Shown here: piece by piece, positions 40,144 through 49,256 of the stretch
Position numbering within the stretch: position 1 is the first letter of the stretch
How the letters are laid out: every line of letters starts with the position of its first letter
The notes under the pieces: model-generated
What the model was told of the DNA's origin: nothing
The model's database searches: none
Seen by the model: only the letters and a program-made list of their open reading frames with translations
Translations under genes and position numbers: made by a program
Assembly: GCF_900167975.1 (NCBI RefSeq)
Contig: NZ_FUZU01000001.1
Location: forward strand, 315,001 to 379,000
DNA length: 64,000 nt
Direction of reading: 5' to 3'
Source: Ohtaekwangia koreensis
GTDB taxonomy: Bacteria; Bacteroidota; Bacteroidia; Cytophagales; Cyclobacteriaceae

Positions 40144-40527
40144 GTGTTCAGGAAAATAATCTGCTATGTAATTCTTTTAAGCATGACACTGCATTGCGGC
40201 AGCAGGTTGGGTATTCTTTCCTATATATATCAACAGCGCCACGATATAGCCTATACAATCGGTCTTATCTCGGAGATCCCGATCGCTTTATGTAGCAGCG
40301 ATTATGATTTTAACGAAGGGCTTCCTGTTGTCCATCAGGATACCAGTGATCAAAGTATTCCTCCATTTTTTTCAAACGCACACGAAATTTTATTGTTTGT
40401 TCAACAGCACGACTTCGCTTTGAATATAGAACGTAATGCAATTGCCGATACTTCAAATATATATGTTAAAAACAGGAAGTATACTGCACCGTTACCTGCC
40501 ATCTTTCACCCGCCTTCTTTAGCATAA
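40144..40527 (+). CDS. Small membrane-associated protein of the copper locus
   Basis: 127 residues, starting at a GTG (40144). A hydrophobic N-terminus (FRKIICYVILLSMTL) is followed by HCGSRLGILSYIYQQRHDIAYTIGL and later LCSSDYDF; the paired Cys18 and Cys50 and nearby His17 and His33 could hold a metal. From memory, small proteins with this HCxSRLGxLSxxY pattern are found in Bacteroidota beside metal genes, but I know no assigned function. It lies 96 bases before the MbnP-like gene, which makes a copper role plausible. An alternative start is ATG 40183, which would remove the membrane segment. Confidence 0.6.
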   Translation: MFRKIICYVILLSMTLHCGSRLGILSYIYQQRHDIAYTIGLISEIPIALCSSDYDFNEGLPVVHQDTSDQSIPPFFSNAHEILLFVQQHDFALNIERNAIADTSNIYVKNRKYTAPLPAIFHPPSLA

Positions 40528-40623
40528 CCATTCTTTTCTTATTCTCACGTAAGCAGGCCTTGTAGTTAACAAGCGCTGTCTGTTTCGTCATTATTATTTT
40601 TTAACATTTTACGAATTTTGGTT

Positions 40624-41412
40624 ATGAAAAAGATATTATCTCTTTCTGTTCTTGCTATTGCTTTTATTTTACTGACCTCCTGTTCAGACGATGAAAACCC
40701 GCAGTCGGGTTCAATCGAAATTGAATTTGACAACGTTGTTGGAGAGGACGACCTCACACTGAATACAACCGAAGAAGTATATACGAATGCTGCCGGTGAA
40801 ACTTTTAAAGTGACCATGCTGAAATACTATATAAGCAACATTATACTTACCCGTGAAGACGGGTCTATTTACCAGGATGAAGTTACTGCGGATGGTTCCA
40901 AAGGATATTACCTGGTGGATGAAGCGAATGCTGTATCGCAGTTAATAACATTGAACAACGTACCTGCCGGAAGTTATACCAGCATGACCTTTACCATTGG
41001 TGTAGACGCAAACCGCGTAACGGAAGGTGCACAGACGGGCGCACTGGATATAGCGAACGATATGTTCTGGAGCTGGAACAGTGGCTATATATTCTTAAAG
41101 TTTGAAGGTATATCTGCAGCATCCACAGAAGAGAATAAAGCTGTGATGTATCATGTAGGTGGATATAAAATAATTGATACCAATCCGAGTTCTGCTAATA
41201 ATGTAAAAACCAAAACGGTTACGTTCACGGCTGCGAAAGTTGCTTCCGATAAAACTCCGGAAGTACATATGATCGTAGATGTATTAAAATTCTTTGCATC
41301 ACCCAATCAAGTAAGCTTTGCAGCCGTGCCGGTGCAAATGTCACCCAAGGAAAATATACCTGTGGTGGAGAACTATCTCAACACATTTATAGCAGACCAT
41401 GTACATAACTAA
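40624..41412 (+). CDS. MbnP-like copper-binding lipoprotein
   Basis: 262 residues with a lipoprotein signal (lipobox LLTSC, Cys20). The chain matches the MbnP family: an N-terminal FDNVVGEDDLTLN strand, a TMLKYYISNI core, and the conserved block ANDMFWSWNSGYIFLKFEG with Trp149 and Trp151. In the methanotroph system MbnP is modified by MbnH, which oxidises a Trp to kynurenine, and MbnP binds copper. The adjacent MbnH-like gene overlaps its end by 14 bases, as in that pair. No methanobactin precursor or transporter gene is seen, so the protein probably serves copper handling in the periplasm. The ATG at 40624 was preferred to the TTG six bases upstream. Confidence 0.85.
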   Translation: MKKILSLSVLAIAFILLTSCSDDENPQSGSIEIEFDNVVGEDDLTLNTTEEVYTNAAGETFKVTMLKYYISNIILTREDGSIYQDEVTADGSKGYYLVDEANAVSQLITLNNVPAGSYTSMTFTIGVDANRVTEGAQTGALDIANDMFWSWNSGYIFLKFEGISAASTEENKAVMYHVGGYKIIDTNPSSANNVKTKTVTFTAAKVASDKTPEVHMIVDVLKFFASPNQVSFAAVPVQMSPKENIPVVENYLNTFIADHVHN

Positions 41413-42466
41413 TGCGGCTGGGATCACAGGTATACCAGCGGTTTTTTTAATTTTTGCCGTGATGGTGCCACTGCTGTGGGGATGCTCGGATGCAGACGTC
41501 ACTGCTGATACATCCTATACCATGGAACAACCTGCTAATTTTCCGAAGGCCACGTATACACTTGAAAACAACCCCGTAACGAAAGAAGGATTTGAGCTGG
41601 GGAGAATGCTATTTTATGATACACGCCTCTCGGGCGACAGCACGATCTCGTGTAGCACCTGTCACATTCAGCAGGCGGCTTTCGCAGATCCAGCTCATCG
41701 GGTTAATCATGGTGTAGCCAACCGACTGGGTACACGCAATACACCAGCGTTGACGAATGTCGCTTTTCGATCTTCTTTCTTTTGGGATGGTGGAAGCAAT
41801 CACCTTGATTTCGTTCCAGTTAATGCGCTTACCTCACACGTTGAAATGGATAATACAATGGAAGAAGTTGTGAGAAGGCTAAATGACCTTCCGGAATATC
41901 AAAAGCGTTTTAAAAATGCATTTAATAAAGAGGAGATTGACAGTCAGCAACTACTCCATGCACTATCACAGTTTATGGTAATGTTTGTCTCCGCGAATGC
42001 AAAGTATGACAAAGTGATTCGCGGTGAAGGCGAGCAATTTTCAGCAGAGGAACTTGCCGGCTATGATCTTTTTATAGCCAAGTGTTCTTCCTGCCACGCC
42101 ACCGATCTTTTTACAGATGGTTCGTATCGAAACAACGGACTGGATACTGATTTTAAAAAAGATAGTGGACGAAGCCGAATCACAGAGTTATCTGACGACC
42201 TCGGTAAATTTAAAGTACCAAGCTTGCGCAATGTTGCGCTTACACCTCCCTATATGCATGACGGACGATTTCAGACGCTGGAACAAGTACTGACGCATTA
42301 CGCCCGTCAGGTGAAAGACTCGCCAACAGTAGACCCTGCGTTGCGATCAGGTGATTCGCTTGGTATTCCGATAACCGATGATGAACGTTTGAAAATAATA
42401 GCGTTCATCAAAACTTTAACAGATGATGAATTCGGAAGGGATAAGCGCTTCGCGGATCCTTTTTAG
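41399..42466 (+). CDS. MbnH-like dihaem protein of the cytochrome c peroxidase family
   Basis: 355 residues with a lipoprotein signal (lipobox LLWGC, Cys29). Two c-type haem sites are present: CSTCH (85-89) and CSSCH (229-233), in the layout of bacterial dihaem cytochrome c peroxidases and the MauG/MbnH relatives. MbnH forms a high-valent iron state and oxidises a Trp of its partner MbnP. Gene order and overlap (14 bases) with the MbnP-like gene make that pairing the best assignment. Expected location: membrane-anchored, periplasmic side. Confidence 0.87.
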   Translation: MYITNAAGITGIPAVFLIFAVMVPLLWGCSDADVTADTSYTMEQPANFPKATYTLENNPVTKEGFELGRMLFYDTRLSGDSTISCSTCHIQQAAFADPAHRVNHGVANRLGTRNTPALTNVAFRSSFFWDGGSNHLDFVPVNALTSHVEMDNTMEEVVRRLNDLPEYQKRFKNAFNKEEIDSQQLLHALSQFMVMFVSANAKYDKVIRGEGEQFSAEELAGYDLFIAKCSSCHATDLFTDGSYRNNGLDTDFKKDSGRSRITELSDDLGKFKVPSLRNVALTPPYMHDGRFQTLEQVLTHYARQVKDSPTVDPALRSGDSLGIPITDDERLKIIAFIKTLTDDEFGRDKRFADPF

Positions 42467-42532
42467 GAAGTAAGGTATAGTAGTATAATAGAATCAACAG
42501 TATCCAGATCGATACTGATAATATTTAAAAAA

Positions 42533-43462
42533 ATGAAGTATATGAAAAGATATATTCTGCTGATACTCATCCTGTCGTTGACATCGGTTTCTGCTATAGC
42601 ATGCGATGTATGCGGATGTTCACTGGGAGGAAATTACTATGGTATACTGCCACAGTTTAATAAGAACTTTGTAGGGCTTCGGTGGAGTCAGGCGAAGTTC
42701 TATGCCTATATGAATCACGAAAGCGAATATACCAAGCCGGAGTATTCGCATGATACCTATAGCTCCGTAGAGTTGTGGGGAAGATTTTATGTGAGCAAGA
42801 AATTCCAGGTGTTTGCTTTCGTGCCGTATGCCTATAATACAATGCGCGGGTCGGAGCAGAATGTTACAAGTCAGGGGCTGAGCGATATTACTGTGGTTGC
42901 CAATTGTTTACTCTTCAATACAGGTGACGACAAGACTAAAAAATTCAAGCATACCTTGATGGCAGGCGGAGGCTTGAAACTTCCAACCGGTAAATTTGAA
43001 TTGCAGGATAAAGGTAAACTTGTGAATCCTAATTTTCAGATGGGAACCGGTAGTATAGATTTCCTGGTCTCCGCCGTGTATACCGTGCGTTATCAGAAAA
43101 TAGGTCTGAATACAGAGACCGGGTATAAAATCAACACGCGTAACTCAAATGATTATCTGTTTGGAAATCAGTTTCATGCTTCCTCACAATTGTTCTATTG
43201 GCAGAATGTAAAGGCGATATCATTTCTGCCCAATGCTGGTATATATTATGAGCAGGCGGCATCTCACAAAGATGGAAGAGCGATACAAACCAATACGGGT
43301 GGTTCCGCGCTGCTTGCTTCGGCTGGATTGGAAACTTACTTTAAAAATTTTACACTTGGTGTCAACTATAAACATCCTCTACATCAACACTATAACAGTG
43401 ATGATATTGCAGACATCACCACCAAAGACCGATGGAGCGTTTCAATGACCTATAATTTTTAG
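42533..43462 (+). CDS. Outer-membrane barrel protein with N-terminal CxxCxC motif
   Basis: 309 residues. A signal peptide (about 1-22) is followed at once by ACDVCGCSLGG (Cys24, Cys27, Cys29), a likely metal-binding site, and then by amphipathic strands rich in aromatic residues (SYNTMR-like turns, SVELWGRFYVSKKFQVFAF, GLSDITVVANCLL) ending in Tyr-Asn-Phe, typical of an outer-membrane barrel. In related Bacteroidota loci such CxxCxC barrel proteins follow MbnP/MbnH genes. It would be a candidate copper pore or receptor that works without TonB, since no TonB box is visible. Substrate is inferred from context only. Confidence 0.7.
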   Translation: MKYMKRYILLILILSLTSVSAIACDVCGCSLGGNYYGILPQFNKNFVGLRWSQAKFYAYMNHESEYTKPEYSHDTYSSVELWGRFYVSKKFQVFAFVPYAYNTMRGSEQNVTSQGLSDITVVANCLLFNTGDDKTKKFKHTLMAGGGLKLPTGKFELQDKGKLVNPNFQMGTGSIDFLVSAVYTVRYQKIGLNTETGYKINTRNSNDYLFGNQFHASSQLFYWQNVKAISFLPNAGIYYEQAASHKDGRAIQTNTGGSALLASAGLETYFKNFTLGVNYKHPLHQHYNSDDIADITTKDRWSVSMTYNF

Positions 43463-43715: not shown

Positions 43716-44591
43716 ATGCAAGCAAACTTTACAGATACCATCATTCCTATTTATAATCTCCGCGCATGTGTCGGAGCAAGTGACTTTGCAATCATCCGCA
43801 TGGATCCCTTTGAAGTATTGGGTCACCTCCAAGTACCTCATCGCCAGGAAGGCTATAACATTTCACTTTTACTTCAAGGCAGTGTTACCAAGTATATTGA
43901 TTTTGAACGCCATGTAATAGAAGCGCCTGCACTTATATCGGTAGGAGCTGATCAGATCCATCAATACGAGTATGCCGAAAATGCAGAGATGATTTGTATA
44001 TCATTCAGCCGTGATTTTTTGATTCACGAAATGCGGGGCTGGATAATTTGCTGGGAGTGTATGTTTGGGCACGTTGTCATGAACATGGACGAAGCTGCCG
44101 TGCATGAACTCGAAGTATATGCAAACCTGATGCTCGAAGAATTTCAAGGTAACAAACCCAAGAGTGAAATCGTCATTCGTAGTTTGCTGAATGCATTTAT
44201 AGTTTGCAGCGCACGTATGCGTAAGATATCACTGCCGATACTGCACATGGATGCTTCTCAAAATAAACTCGTGCAACAATTCAAGATGCATGTTGACACA
44301 AACTTCCGTGATAAGACACAGGTATCACAATATGCCGACATGCTATATATTACCCCTGGTCATCTCAACGATGTAATCAAAACAACCGTTGGAAAAACAG
44401 CGAAACAGGTTATTGATGAAAAACGCATCATGGAAGCGAAGCGTTTATTATTCTGGGGCGACCTTAGTTTAAAAGAGATAGCAGGCTATCTGAGTTTTGA
44501 AGATGACTCCTATTTTAACAGGTTCTTTAAAAAACATACCGGTCATACACCATCACTCTTTCAGCGCACGATCCGCGAAAAGTACAATTAA
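43716..44591 (+). CDS. AraC-family transcriptional regulator
   Basis: 291 residues. The N-terminal two thirds form a cupin-like sensing domain (VPHRQEGYNISLLLQGSVTK, LISVGADQIHQYEYAENAE); the C-terminus has two helix-turn-helix units (QYADMLYITPGHLNDVIK and SLKEIAGYLSFEDDSYFNRFF) and the ending KKHTGHTPSLFQR. It lies directly upstream of the RND efflux operon on the same strand, the usual place for its controller. The effector is unknown. Confidence 0.87.
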   Translation: MQANFTDTIIPIYNLRACVGASDFAIIRMDPFEVLGHLQVPHRQEGYNISLLLQGSVTKYIDFERHVIEAPALISVGADQIHQYEYAENAEMICISFSRDFLIHEMRGWIICWECMFGHVVMNMDEAAVHELEVYANLMLEEFQGNKPKSEIVIRSLLNAFIVCSARMRKISLPILHMDASQNKLVQQFKMHVDTNFRDKTQVSQYADMLYITPGHLNDVIKTTVGKTAKQVIDEKRIMEAKRLLFWGDLSLKEIAGYLSFEDDSYFNRFFKKHTGHTPSLFQRTIREKYN

Positions 44592-44629
44592 TACCTTGAT
44601 AAGGTAAATTAAAAAGGGACTTCAAAGGC

Positions 44630-44637
44630 TAACTTTG
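44630..44637 (+). promoter_or_regulatory. -7 promoter element of the RND efflux operon
   Basis: TAACTTTG matches TAnnTTTG in full. No TTG is found 19-21 bases upstream, which suggests dependence on an activator, perhaps the AraC protein encoded just before. Transcription from here gives a leader of about 200 bases. Confidence 0.4.
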
Positions 44638-44650
44638 TTTTACCGTTCAC

Positions 44651-44815
44651 GTTCAGAATGAACATATATAGTGATAAAAGTAAAACTTTTGTCACTACTT
44701 CTTCGTGAAAGACTTTCTTCTGGTGCTGCAGAAGAAAACTTAAATACAGATTTCAATCATGAATGTTTTTTAGAAAAAGCGAACGAGGGTTAGCTAAACC
44801 TTCCTTCACTCGAAG
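44651..44815 (+). promoter_or_regulatory. Structured leader of the RND efflux operon
   Basis: Four successive inverted repeats: GTTCA-GAA-TGAAC (44651-44663); GTGATAAAAG-N5-CTTTTGTCAC (44671-44695, one mismatch); TTTCTTCTG-N6-CAGAAGAAA (44714-44737); and a GGTT/AACC stem within 44785-44815. They could be regulator sites on DNA or hairpins in the leader RNA. Confidence 0.45.
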
Positions 44816-44840
44816 ATGATTTTTTAATTTTTAATATGAG

Positions 44841-46031
44841 ATGTATATGAAAAGGTCAAGTCACAATTATGTAACAAAAACAGTGACGGTGCTCGGAAGC
44901 ATCGGTCTCTTAATTATATTGAATAGCTGCACAACATCATCCGGCAACGCGGGTGGTGGCATGCAACCACCGCTGCCTTCACTTCCTGTAATTTCAGTAA
45001 GCAATCTTGCAGCAACAACCTATCGCGAATTCCCGGCTACGGTAGAAGGTAAAGTAAATGTTGAGATCCGCCCGCAGGTAGATGGATACCTTGAACATAT
45101 TTATGTAGACGAAGGTGCTTACGTGCGCGTAGGCCAACCGTTGTTTCGCATTAATGATCAGCCCTACCGCGAGCAAAACTCCAACGCCAGTGCAGCCTTG
45201 CTTGCTTCGCAGGCAAATCTAGAAAAAGCACAATTGGAAGTTGATCGCCTTACACCACTGGTAAAGAATAATGTAGTATCGGATATACAGCTGAAATCTG
45301 CGGAAGCAAGCTTGCAATCGGCAAAGGCAAATGTAGCACAAGCCAAAGCGCAGGCAGGAAATGCACAGATCAGTCTCGGATATACATTGGTGAAAGCTCC
45401 GGTAAGCGGATATATAGGACGCATTCCGCATAAGATTGGTAGTTTGGTAGGCAGAGGCGAAGCGCAACCATTAACTGTATTGTCGGATGTAAATGAAGTA
45501 TATGCATACTTCTCTATGAGCGAAATTGATTTCCTTCAGTTCAAAGAACGTATACCAGGCAATACACTGGAAGAGAAGATCAAGAACCTTCCGCCAGTAG
45601 AGCTTACGTTGGCAGACGATAGTTTCTACTCTGAAAAAGGAAAAGTTGAAACCGTAGAAGGTCAGTTTGATAAAACTACAGGCGCTATAAGTTTCAGAGC
45701 CGTATTCCCAAATAACAAAGGACTGTTACGCTCCGGCAATACAGGACGTGTTCGTATACCTACTGTACACAACGAAGCTGTAGTTATACCACAGGACGCA
45801 ACGTTCGAGCTACAGGACAAAGTACTTGTATTCGTAGTAGGGGATAGCAATAAAGTAGTGAGCAGGCCCATTGTTGTCGAAGGACAAACCAGCAACTATT
45901 ACTTTGTAAAGAACGGTTTGAAGACAGGCGAGAAAATTGTCTATACCGGGTTGAGCCGCTTGCGCGATGGAGCTGTTATTGATCCACAGCCATTATCGCT
46001 TGACAGCTTACTGAAAGCGAAGCCGCTTTAA
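44841..46031 (+). CDS. RND efflux periplasmic adaptor (HlyD/AcrA type), lipoprotein
   Basis: 396 residues with a lipoprotein signal (lipobox ILNSC). The domains follow the AcrA order: barrel-sandwich hybrid with the lipoyl-like halves (VNVEIRPQVDGYLEHIYVDEG and IGRIPHKIGSLVG), an alpha-hairpin (about 100-175; SNASAALLASQANLEKAQLE), then beta-barrel and membrane-proximal domains. It links the inner-membrane pump with the outer-membrane channel encoded next. The gene is first in the adaptor-pump-channel operon and carries a long leader. Confidence 0.92.
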   Translation: MYMKRSSHNYVTKTVTVLGSIGLLIILNSCTTSSGNAGGGMQPPLPSLPVISVSNLAATTYREFPATVEGKVNVEIRPQVDGYLEHIYVDEGAYVRVGQPLFRINDQPYREQNSNASAALLASQANLEKAQLEVDRLTPLVKNNVVSDIQLKSAEASLQSAKANVAQAKAQAGNAQISLGYTLVKAPVSGYIGRIPHKIGSLVGRGEAQPLTVLSDVNEVYAYFSMSEIDFLQFKERIPGNTLEEKIKNLPPVELTLADDSFYSEKGKVETVEGQFDKTTGAISFRAVFPNNKGLLRSGNTGRVRIPTVHNEAVVIPQDATFELQDKVLVFVVGDSNKVVSRPIVVEGQTSNYYFVKNGLKTGEKIVYTGLSRLRDGAVIDPQPLSLDSLLKAKPL

Positions 46032-46112
46032 TTCCACCTTTTAAAGAAGGCCTCAAGTAAATTATATAATAAAGCCGGGTGACTGATCATCCGGTCACTA
46101 AAACTCTGTCTT

Positions 46113-49100
46113 ATGTTAAAAGTATTTATAGAACGGCCGGTACTGGCCACCGTTGTGTCGATCATTCTTGTGCTGCTGGGGACGCTTTCATTAATGAACC
46201 TCCCGGTAACACAATTCCCGGATATAGCACCACCGAGTATACAGGTGCAGGCAGTATATCCTGGCGCGAACGCTGAAGTCGTTGCCCGTTCAGTAGCCAC
46301 CCCGATAGAGGAAGCTGTGAATGGTGTGGAGAACATGACCTATATGACGTCAACCTCCAACAACGATGGGTCTATGATCCTGACAGTATATTTCAAACTC
46401 GGTACGGATCCTGACCTTGCTGCTGTGAACGTGCAGAACCGTGTGTCGAAAGCTACCAGCTTATTGCCATCCGAAGTTGTGCAGGCGGGTATATCTACAC
46501 AGAAGCAACAGAACAGTATGATCATGGTGACGAACCTGGTGAGCGATGAAAAAATGTATGACGAAACATTTTTGCAGAACTATGCCAAGATCAACATCAT
46601 TCCGGAAATACAACGTGTGCCTGGTGTAGGCCAGGCGATGGTATTCGGATCGAAAGATTACTCCATGCGCATTTGGCTGAAGCCTGATCGTTTGGCTTCG
46701 TATGGTTTAGCAGTACAAGATGTATTGGATGCTATACGCGAACAAAATGTTGAAGCTGCTCCAGGACGATTTGGTGAAAACAGTCAGGAATCATTCGAAT
46801 ATGTAATCAAGTATAAAGGAAAGTTAAACGAAGGAAAGCAGTACGAGGATATTATACTGAAGGCTGATGCCGATGGATCTGTACTTCGGCTCAGAGATGT
46901 AGCGCGTGTAGAACTCGGCTCCTATACCTATAATCAGAACACTACTGTAAATGGTAAATCCGGTATCGGTGTGGCGATCTTCCAGACGGCTGGTTCCAAC
47001 GCCAACGATATACAGACTTCTATCAATGAACTGATGGAAAAGGCTAAAGGTAATTTTCCTCAAGGTATATCATGCTTTAACATCTATAGTACAAAGGAGT
47101 ATCTGGATGAATCCATCGAACAGGTAATCGAAACGCTGATCGAAGCATTTATACTCGTATTTATAGTCGTGTTTATTTTCTTGCAGGATTTTCGTTCTAC
47201 ACTTATTCCAGCTATAGCTGTACCTGTAGCGATTATCGGTACATTCTTCTTCATGCAGTTGTTCGGGTTTACCATCAACCTGCTTACACTGTTCGCTCTT
47301 GTACTTGCCATTGGTATAGTAGTGGATGATGCGATTGTGGTAGTGGAGGCGGTACACTCGAAAATGCAGCTCACGAAAATGAGTGCCAAGAAAGCTACGA
47401 TTCAATCCATGAGTGAAATCTCCGGAGCGATTGTTTCCATTACATTGGTGATGTCTGCTGTATTTATACCCGTCGGATTTATGCAAGGTCCCGCGGGAGT
47501 ATTCTATCGTCAGTTCGCATTTACATTAGCGATCGCGATCGTTATTTCCGCTGTCAATGCACTAACATTGAGTCCTGCGCTTTGCGCGTTGTTCCTGAAA
47601 TCAGATCATGCCGATGATCATGAACATAGCAATGACAAATGGAGCACACGCTTTTTCAGATCTTTTAATACAGGCTTCAGCGCCATGACTGAAAAGTATC
47701 TCGGCAGTGTACATTTCCTTGTAAAGCACAGGTGGCTTACGATAGGTGGACTTGCTATCGTAACAGGTGTTACAGTATGGATGTTGCGCACAACGCCTAC
47801 CGGATTTATACCGAATGAAGATCAGAGCTTCTTTGTATACTCTATAACATTACCGCCAGGTGCATCACTGCAACGTACGCGTGAAGTGGTAAACAAAGTA
47901 GAGAACATGATGCATGAACTTGAAGCAACGAATCACTACTTAAGTGTTTCGGGGTTGAACATCATCACCTCTTCCATCAGCTCTAACTATGCTGTTGGTT
48001 TTGTAAAGATGAAACCGCATGATGAACGAGGTGCTGTTAAAGATATAAATGCAATCATGGGGATGGTACAACAAAAACTTTCCAGTATAAATGAAGCGGA
48101 TATATTTACGTTTACGATGCCTACTGTACCAGGCTTCAGTAACATGGCCGGCTTTGAATTGATCTTGCAGGATCGTACCGGTGGATCACTCGAAAAGTTA
48201 AACGAAACAACGCAAGGTCTGATCGGAGCGTTGATGCAACGTCCGGAGATTGCGTATGCATTTACGACATTCAATACTGCCAACCCGCAGTTTATGTTGA
48301 ATGTTGACGAGAAGAAAGCAAAACAACTCGGTGTATCCGTAAGTGATATATTGCAGACACTGCAGGTATATTACGGAAGTACATTTGCTTCTGACTTCAA
48401 CCGCTTCGGTAAATTCTATAGAGTGATCATGCAGGCGGAAGCTCCTTCCCGTGATGATCCGAATTCTCTGAAAGGCATGTATGTGAAGAACTCGTATGAC
48501 GAAATGGTACCGCTCAGTACACTCGTGGTCTTAGAACGGGTATATGGTCCAGAGACCGTTACACGGAATAACTTATTCACCGCAGTAACGATCAACGGTG
48601 TTCCGAAACCTGGCTATAGCTCGGGGGATGCCATCAAAGCAGTTGAAGAAGTAGCAGCACAATATTTGCCGCGTGGCTATAGCTACGAATGGGCCGGTAT
48701 GACAAAAGAAGAAATCGCTTCCGGTGGACAGGCAGGTTTCATCTTTACACTCTGTCTCATATTTGTATACTTCCTGCTGGCAGCGCAATATGAAAGCTAT
48801 ATACTTCCATTGTCGGTTATACTTTCAATACCACTGGGGATCTTTGGAGTATTTCTCTTTATAAACTTATTCGGTATCGATAATAATATATATGTACAGG
48901 TAGGACTGATCATGCTCATTGGTCTGTTGGCGAAGAACGCCATTCTGATCGTAGAGTATGCGGTGCAGAGACGAAGAGCGGGAATGGATTTGTTGGCTTC
49001 TGCTATTGAAGCTTCCAAACTTCGTCTGCGCCCAATCCTGATGACATCCTTTGCATTTATAGTGGGCTTGTTGCCGCTGATGCGCGCGAACGGAGCATCT

Positions 49101-49256
49101 GCTTTGGGTAACCGGTCTATCAGTACAGGTGCAGCCGGTGGAATGTTGACGGGTGTATTGCTGGGTATCTTTGTGATCCCTGTGCTATATATCATCTTCC
49201 AGTACCTGCAGGAAAAAGTGACGGGTGCTCCCAAGCCTGAAGAAATTACCGAATAG
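46113..49256 (+). CDS. RND multidrug efflux pump (HAE1, AcrB type)
   Basis: 1047 residues, the full size of the family. It has twelve membrane helices in two repeats with two large periplasmic loops. The proton-relay pair is in IGIVVDDAIVVVEAV (helix 4) and the HAE1 signatures PVTQFPDIAPPSIQVQAVYPG and GLLAKNAILIVEYA are intact. It exports hydrophobic compounds (antibiotics, bile-like compounds, dyes) with proton entry. Specificity cannot be given. The gene shows the TATA-linked Ile codon pattern well: in its first 355 codons ATA is used for 10 of 14 Ile after a T-ending codon but for only 2 of 16 after other codons. Confidence 0.95.
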   Translation: MLKVFIERPVLATVVSIILVLLGTLSLMNLPVTQFPDIAPPSIQVQAVYPGANAEVVARSVATPIEEAVNGVENMTYMTSTSNNDGSMILTVYFKLGTDPDLAAVNVQNRVSKATSLLPSEVVQAGISTQKQQNSMIMVTNLVSDEKMYDETFLQNYAKINIIPEIQRVPGVGQAMVFGSKDYSMRIWLKPDRLASYGLAVQDVLDAIREQNVEAAPGRFGENSQESFEYVIKYKGKLNEGKQYEDIILKADADGSVLRLRDVARVELGSYTYNQNTTVNGKSGIGVAIFQTAGSNANDIQTSINELMEKAKGNFPQGISCFNIYSTKEYLDESIEQVIETLIEAFILVFIVVFIFLQDFRSTLIPAIAVPVAIIGTFFFMQLFGFTINLLTLFALVLAIGIVVDDAIVVVEAVHSKMQLTKMSAKKATIQSMSEISGAIVSITLVMSAVFIPVGFMQGPAGVFYRQFAFTLAIAIVISAVNALTLSPALCALFLKSDHADDHEHSNDKWSTRFFRSFNTGFSAMTEKYLGSVHFLVKHRWLTIGGLAIVTGVTVWMLRTTPTGFIPNEDQSFFVYSITLPPGASLQRTREVVNKVENMMHELEATNHYLSVSGLNIITSSISSNYAVGFVKMKPHDERGAVKDINAIMGMVQQKLSSINEADIFTFTMPTVPGFSNMAGFELILQDRTGGSLEKLNETTQGLIGALMQRPEIAYAFTTFNTANPQFMLNVDEKKAKQLGVSVSDILQTLQVYYGSTFASDFNRFGKFYRVIMQAEAPSRDDPNSLKGMYVKNSYDEMVPLSTLVVLERVYGPETVTRNNLFTAVTINGVPKPGYSSGDAIKAVEEVAAQYLPRGYSYEWAGMTKEEIASGGQAGFIFTLCLIFVYFLLAAQYESYILPLSVILSIPLGIFGVFLFINLFGIDNNIYVQVGLIMLIGLLAKNAILIVEYAVQRRRAGMDLLASAIEASKLRLRPILMTSFAFIVGLLPLMRANGASALGNRSISTGAAGGMLTGVLLGIFVIPVLYIIFQYLQEKVTGAPKPEEITE

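Follow-up and report, generated by a model that had tools for sequence, protein, structure and literature searches.

The window analysed here is a stretch of 64,000 nucleotides (nt) of the Ohtaekwangia koreensis genome (7.24 Mb), corresponding to positions 315001-379000 of contig 6. Four genes on its forward strand, spanning 40144-43462, encode a small protein, the lipoprotein MbnP, the di-haem enzyme MbnH and an outer-membrane barrel-type protein (Table 1). The small gene is referred to below as the leader, after the copper-responsive leaders CruR and CutF, which it resembles in layout. The start codon of mbnP was set at the ATG at 40624; the mechanical list of open reading frames (ORFs) has a TTG at 40618.

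MbnP was recognized by the Pfam family PF20243 with 191 bits (cut-off 27) and MbnH by CCP_MauG, also of Pfam, with 182 bits. MbnH carries two CxxCH haem sites (CSTCH, residues 85-89; CSSCH, residues 229-233), and its gene overlaps the 3' end of mbnP by 14 nt. In the Protein Data Bank (PDB) the best match of MbnH is 6E1C, a 'di-heme enzyme', which ranks above bacterial cytochrome c peroxidases and MauG. A profile built from a 51-row MbnP alignment gave a single PDB match up to E 1, namely 7L6G (E 3e-4), entitled 'metallo-mystery pair system four-Cys motif protein'. We take 6E1C and 7L6G to be the MbnH and MbnP of Methylosinus, respectively. Among the aligned MbnP proteins W149 is invariant (96 of 96) and W151 occurs in 95, so that the WxW motif is present in 95 of 96; H177 is found in all of them, and at position 239 there are 56 Met and 31 His residues. 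MbnP binds copper. Oxidation of the leading WxW Trp is reported for the Methylosinus protein, whose copper site is reported to use His and Met. The window genome yielded no MbnB, the methanobactin gene, above cut-off (best 22 bits against 325) and no copper TonB receptor above cut-off (best 32.7 bits against 472). An earlier note on this DNA had claimed an MbnP/MbnH pair with FWSW Trp residues 149 and 151, followed by a barrel protein starting with CDVCGC, in a locus without methanobactin; these claims hold.

The window MbnP reads C-SDDEN after its lipobox. Surface-export signals are known as SDDDD in Bacteroides and SDDFE in Flavobacterium (PMC5080379), and the likeness suggests that MbnP may be displayed on the cell surface. 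Two or more acidic residues within six positions after the lipobox Cys were counted in 83 of 114 MbnP proteins, 80 of 125 MbnH proteins and 43 of 128 other lipobox ORFs (114 of 181 MbnP and 125 of 196 MbnH proteins bear a lipobox), a comparison weakened by a crude lipobox rule and by the background ORFs having been filtered by another, stricter rule. Extra or tandem copies of MbnH or MbnP occur within single loci (L112, L145, L150, L105, L137, L174).

Table 1. Features of the four-gene locus (positions in the window)
Feature	Position	Strand	Remarks
Small leader ORF	40144..40527	+	Starts with GTG; 127 aa, N-terminally hydrophobic, with a remnant of the Cys motif (C50) and HPP at its end
HPP codons (H122 P123 P124)	40507..40515	+	Three residues short of the leader end
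5' arm CATAACCA	40523..40530	+	Contains the leader stop codon (40525-40527); exact complement of 40619-40626
Leader-mbnP gap	40528..40623	+	96 nt; strong conservation against the congener
3' arm TGGTTATG	40619..40626	+	Includes the mbnP start codon (40624-40626)
mbnP	40624..41412	+	ATG start, 262 aa; lipoprotein, C20 followed by SDDEN; W149/W151, H177, M239
WSW codons 149-151 of mbnP	41068..41076	+	
mbnH	41399..42466	+	355 aa; di-haem enzyme of the MauG/CCP superfamily
Outer-membrane barrel-type protein gene	42533..43462	+	309 aa; CDVCGC at residues 24-29
CDVCGC codons of the barrel gene	42602..42619	+	

Recurrence of the four-gene set and the Cys-tailed barrel

A sample of 395 Bacteroidota genomes was searched. 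PF20243 matched in 97 genomes, in 96 of them above the cut-off, and 80 of the 118 places over the cut-off were fetched as MbnP loci. MbnH adjoins mbnP in all 80; the small gene is present in 44, the barrel in 40, both in 38 and neither in 34. Loci of the pair (MbnPH) fall into two classes, with or without leader and barrel. Anchoring on MbnH instead gave, for the best 80 of 588 matches, the pair in 78 loci, the barrel in 47, the small gene in 46, both in 42 and neither in 27. MbnP was found in 35 of the 36 genomes with a barrel scoring at least 110 bits, versus 96 of 395 overall (Fisher 4e-23). The 36 barrels of that score all lie within 4.5 kb of a partner, 32 with MbnP and a listed leader, one with MbnP only and three with a leader only; the barrel counts rest on the first 89 barrel matches, the remaining ones scoring at most 36.5 bits. 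The same order of genes turns up in distantly related genomes, which puts the association of the four genes above chance; recurrence of the set, which the earlier note had named as a check, is thus supported.

In a quick MbnH tree with near-copies removed, the label 'both' (small gene and barrel) requires 25 changes versus 57 in shuffles, i.e. the labels are clustered. The neighbours of the window in this tree are mostly four-gene or barrel loci, but the only group with strong support to which the window belongs is the pair with its congener. The barrel occurs in two of the seven genomes of the genus that were searched, the window genome included. Around MbnPH loci that have the leader or the barrel, 73 flank proteins were compared and no further fixed partner emerged; no family occurred more than four times, and SCO1-SenC occurred three times (73 of 175 and 74 of 128 listed flank genes were scanned).

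Four loci (L076, L233, L234 and L235, in genomes G429, G045, G158 and G164) have the barrel directly after the leader, without MbnP or MbnH in the fetched stretch; leader and barrel can make up a unit of their own. A record from Glaciecola (Pseudomonadota; L187:3665-5981) contains leader, MbnP and MbnH without the barrel, and is probably either a cross-phylum transfer or a mislabelled record.

The barrel protein has no match in Pfam or NCBIfam, and its profile matched nothing in the PDB up to E 1; assignment to a known family was rejected on these grounds. The barrel architecture is predicted from the sequence, most copies ending in F, L or I. In the window copy, CDVCGC sits immediately after a signal-peptide-like start. 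Where a locus has both MbnH and the small gene (96 barrels), CxxCGC was found in 84, another CxxCxC in four, CxxC in seven and none of these in one; 13 of the 15 barrels with neither MbnH nor the small gene nearby lack CxxCGC, CxxCxC and CxxC altogether. In the barrel alignments A1 and A5 the Cys residues are invariant by construction, the rows having been chosen with CxxCxC. Signal peptide and motif are adjacent except in Flavobacterium-type copies, where a linker separates them, which disfavours lipidation of the Cys. CxxCGC would most naturally be read as a tail that binds Cu(I). Between mbnH and the barrel gene lies a perfect 7-bp hairpin with a T-rich tail (42498-42517), which the terminator scan picked up on either strand and which may uncouple barrel expression from MbnPH.

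The leader family and its placement

Members of the small-gene family share a hydrophobic N terminus, followed by the consensus Y..N.dYI...LC.NK.KP.l.CNGKC.L.K, then a spacer that varies and, at the C terminus, F[HRK]PP; the three Cys of the CxNKxKP..CNGKC motif are nearly invariant. Carriers of the intact motif include Pedobacter cryoconitis (L184) and Chitinophaga silvatica (L178), both environmental relatives. Of 162 copies, 161 are complete. F[HRK]PP ends 121 of these 161, 141 have PP at a distance of two to four residues from the stop, and PP lies inside the last 15 residues in 159; among 1264 other ORFs 100-170 aa long, 52 have it there. As the seeds had been picked with a PP end, the search was repeated with a profile restricted to the N-terminal part; PP was again found in the last 15 residues of 156 of 158 complete matches (121 of 123 outside the alignment). 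The distance from the last Cys to PP is nearly fixed at 67.9+/-2.3 residues (156 copies), with an unconserved spacer sequence (mean top-residue frequency 0.18).

The earlier note had taken the small gene for a copper-handling membrane protein on account of the string HCGSRLG (residues 17-23 of the window protein). This was rejected: among the relatives examined the string is confined to the window and its congener (locus L072), and it is absent from the 34 remaining rows of the family alignment. Build and placement point to a leader instead. Judged by eye and hydropathy, the N terminus of the window protein is hydrophobic (15-residue means up to 1.74) and may be a signal peptide.

At least 150 leader places exist in the phylum sample. 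Of the 150 listed, 35 are near MbnP and the barrel, 23 near MbnP, nine near the barrel and 83 near neither. Twenty of these 83 were fetched, and in 15 the next gene has a TonB-receptor plug domain (two of the receptors, at L248 and L256, are near-identical at 91%); SCO1-SenC follows in one and YtkA in two. The copper receptor model TIGR01778 was the best model for five of nine receptors scanned (nine of the 15 receptor-bearing loci), all of them under its cut-off. The window copy is the only leader found in its own genome.

The window leader is assigned to the family because of a 19.5-bit score against a profile built without it, together with its gene position and its FHPP end. It evolves under purifying selection relative to the congener (nonsynonymous divergence dN 0.041, synonymous divergence dS 0.248). 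Two of the three motif Cys are lost in both; C50, HPP and the gap are kept. A frameshift was considered as the source of this loss; the other frames were read by eye and the motif was not seen. The window leader may use other sensing residues, may serve as a fixed coupling device or may be fading.

Among 64 MbnP genes without an F[HRK]PP leader or barrel, 11 are preceded by another small ORF with PP near its end. Three of these, at L142 (122 aa, 134 nt upstream), L150 (125 aa) and L137 (160 aa), look Cys-rich, one of them ending in RGPP. This hints that PP-ended leaders were recruited to MbnPH perhaps more than once. At three loci without the leader (L116, L122, L206), small ORFs resembling metal sensors precede MbnP; from reading, we presume them to belong to the LTXXQ/CnrX family.

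Leader end and mbnP start

The last codon and stop of the leader (CATAACCA) are exactly complementary to the start region of mbnP (TGGTTATG), with a predicted duplex energy of -13.2 kcal/mol in the window and -16.2 kcal/mol in the congener. The pairing was followed over 77 of 83 loci left after near-copy removal, with L072 standing for the window and loci without a recognisable lipoprotein start excluded. When 12 windows were compared, this pairing ranked first in 23 of the 77 loci, against an expectation of 6.4, and in 17 loci it was stronger than in shuffles at p<=0.1 (binomial 0.0014); it is a tendency, not a rule.

The gap itself is conserved. Three substitutions in 95 aligned bases separate it from that of the congener, versus 50 in 268 fourfold sites of mbnP and mbnH (p 6e-6). 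Among 19 locus pairs with 8-60% divergence at fourfold sites, which share loci and are thus non-independent, 15 show a lower divergence in the gap than at those sites. No intrinsic terminator was reported in the gap by the terminator scan.

Interpretation and comparison with known systems

In CruR of Bordetella pertussis, copper relieves a translation arrest at RAPP, whereupon Rho terminates and the downstream TonB receptor is shut off; spacing matters, and CruR homologues precede TonB receptors as well as MbnPH-like genes (PMC9426467). The arrest was shown in vitro in a later survey, which places copper-related RAPP and RGPP leaders in various lineages, with exceptions such as Bacillota and Bacteroidota (PMC12992588). 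In CutF of Rhodobacter capsulatus, with CxxxC and a proline-rich end, copper lets a stem-loop over the start of the next gene open (PMC9973294). CutF-like proteins were collected there on the criteria of length, a PP end, a signal peptide and the gap, and 40% of the normalised set are from Bacteroidota (PMC9973294).

The window locus resembles the CruR system in having a small exported-type ORF with a Cys motif and a C-terminal PP at fixed distance, followed by a long gap and by outer-membrane copper genes; the family differs in its CxGxC (not CXXC), its F[HRK]PP (not RAPP), its Bacteroidota hosts and the lack of DUF2946 (PF11162), the domain of CruR. Of the motifs, the window copy keeps only C50 and FHPP. 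Measured against the published CutF-like rules (less than 150 aa, PP in the last 15 residues, a same-strand gene within 1,000 nt; PMC9973294), the window leader has 127 aa, PP three residues from its end and a 96-nt gap, and it shares with CutF a possible stem hiding the next start codon. The downstream genes are different, namely MbnPH and the barrel, and MbnP occurs 0 times in the text of PMC9973294; F[HRK]PP leaders may sit unnamed among its CutF-like entries. The MbnP domain, WxW, the conserved His and the adjacent di-haem enzyme are shared with MbnP/MbnH of Methylosinus trichosporium OB3b, from which the window differs by an MbnP without Cys other than the lipobox Cys, by the lack of MbnB, and by the flanking leader and CxxCGC barrel. 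In the methanotroph systems MopE/SACCP and CorA/CorB, a surface copper-binding protein likewise stands beside a di-haem peroxidase and is repressed by copper, and the copper site of MopE holds kynurenine; barrel and leader are not mentioned for these systems in the available part of PMC3621798. The system is less novel than the earlier note had supposed in one respect, MbnPH pairs well beyond methanobactin producers having been published already (PMC3621798), and little-described in another: the open-licence literature searched gave no description as such of the four-gene set, of the Cys-tailed barrel or, above all, of the F[HRK]PP leader.

With about even confidence, we read the locus as a copper-acquisition operon under a copper-responsive arrest-peptide leader of the CruR/CutF type. 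The leader part of this reading is drawn from the Cys motif, the fixed-length unconserved spacer, the PP end and the gene placement, which match the CruR/CutF layout; the small gene is built like these leaders and, by analogy, would act like them. The exported nascent chain would sense copper through its Cys motif, with F[HRK]PP at its end as the site of ribosome pausing. We reckon that in the window a pause on P123/P124 would bring the ribosome to about 40525-40527, within the helix formed with the mbnP start, so that this start would be freed and the operon switched on. Copper would release the pause and shut the operon, a polarity like that of CruR and expected of uptake genes. MbnP is a lipoprotein with a surface-export-like signal; MbnH would oxidise its first WxW Trp (W149) to kynurenine, after which MbnP could hold Cu(I), and on the periplasmic side Cu(I) would be taken by the N-terminal CxxCGC tail of the barrel, transport being presumably inward.

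Several results weigh against this reading. MbnP and MbnH score below the NCBIfam equivalog cut-offs (47 bits against 140 for TIGR04052, MbnP_like_WxW; 222 bits against 362.85 for TIGR04039); because both are missed, the two proteins are, judged by sequence, members of a Bacteroidota branch and not near copies of the methanotroph proteins. DUF2946 gave no match up to E 1 in 35 family members or in the window protein, and RAPP is not present in the family. No leader or barrel lies inside the limits used at 34 of the 80 MbnPH loci, and most loci lack the pairing of leader end and mbnP start. Masking the leader end raises the predicted openness of the window mbnP start modestly, from 0.27 to 0.48, and over 78 loci the mean gain is 0.065, exceeding 0.3 in nine. 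The fold energy of the window is ordinary (z -1.39), and in four of the 19 locus pairs the gap is no less diverged than fourfold sites. The window leader is a weak member of its family. As it and the congener copy have lost two of three motif Cys, this genome is the one in which the leader can least safely be taken to sense copper; the response in this genus may be weakened, changed or gone.

Among the alternatives, MbnPH and the barrel could serve surface storage, sequestration or detoxification of copper, induced by excess copper with the polarity of CutF. We consider this unlikely, although the copper binding of MbnP would suit it and CutF-like leaders frequently stand ahead of efflux or detoxification genes (PMC9973294). 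The leaders found elsewhere mostly precede TonB receptors, i.e. importers, some of them nearest to the copper-receptor model, and the genes for CorA and CorB are downregulated by copper (PMC3621798). Somewhat less probable still is a stable small protein, a membrane-anchored periplasmic Cu(I) carrier with three Cys that is fed by the barrel or by TonB receptors, its HPP being structural or partner-binding. The hydrophobic N terminus, the three nearly invariant family Cys, the purifying selection on the protein and its pairing with two kinds of outer-membrane protein (the barrel without MbnP in nine of 150 listed leader loci, TonB receptors in 15 of 20) agree with a carrier, which gives no reason, however, for a fixed-length unconserved spacer, PP near the stop, a conserved gap and start-codon pairing, nor for the retention of the window copy despite the loss of two of its three Cys. 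That MbnH is an ordinary peroxide-removing cytochrome c peroxidase with partners unrelated to copper is highly improbable despite clear homology to the bacterial cytochrome c peroxidases, the haem gene adjoining MbnP in 80 of 80 loci, the closest solved relative being 6E1C and W149 being invariant (96/96).

Extended to the phylum, the copper-acquisition reading would give Bacteroidota an F[HRK]PP arrest-peptide class of their own, controlling MbnPH-barrel copper uptake and, elsewhere, copper TonB receptors; the sensor in the window genus has shed its Cys motif and may be rewired. We propose this broader view tentatively, with slightly less than even confidence. Outer-membrane copper uptake in Bacteroidota is hardly described in the literature searched. 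If the view is true, the gap left by RAPP/RGPP leaders in Bacteroidota is filled by a different stall sequence, F[HRK]PP, and the leader would be a phylum-wide marker of copper-uptake genes, including an unnamed family of Cys-tailed barrels. A testable question follows, namely whether a nascent peptide rather than a repressor sets MbnP/MbnH levels by copper.

The stretch downstream of the four genes (43716-49256) encodes a regulator of the AraC type, an adaptor of the CusB/HlyD type and, in a large ORF, a pump that, judged by reading, resembles an RND transporter.

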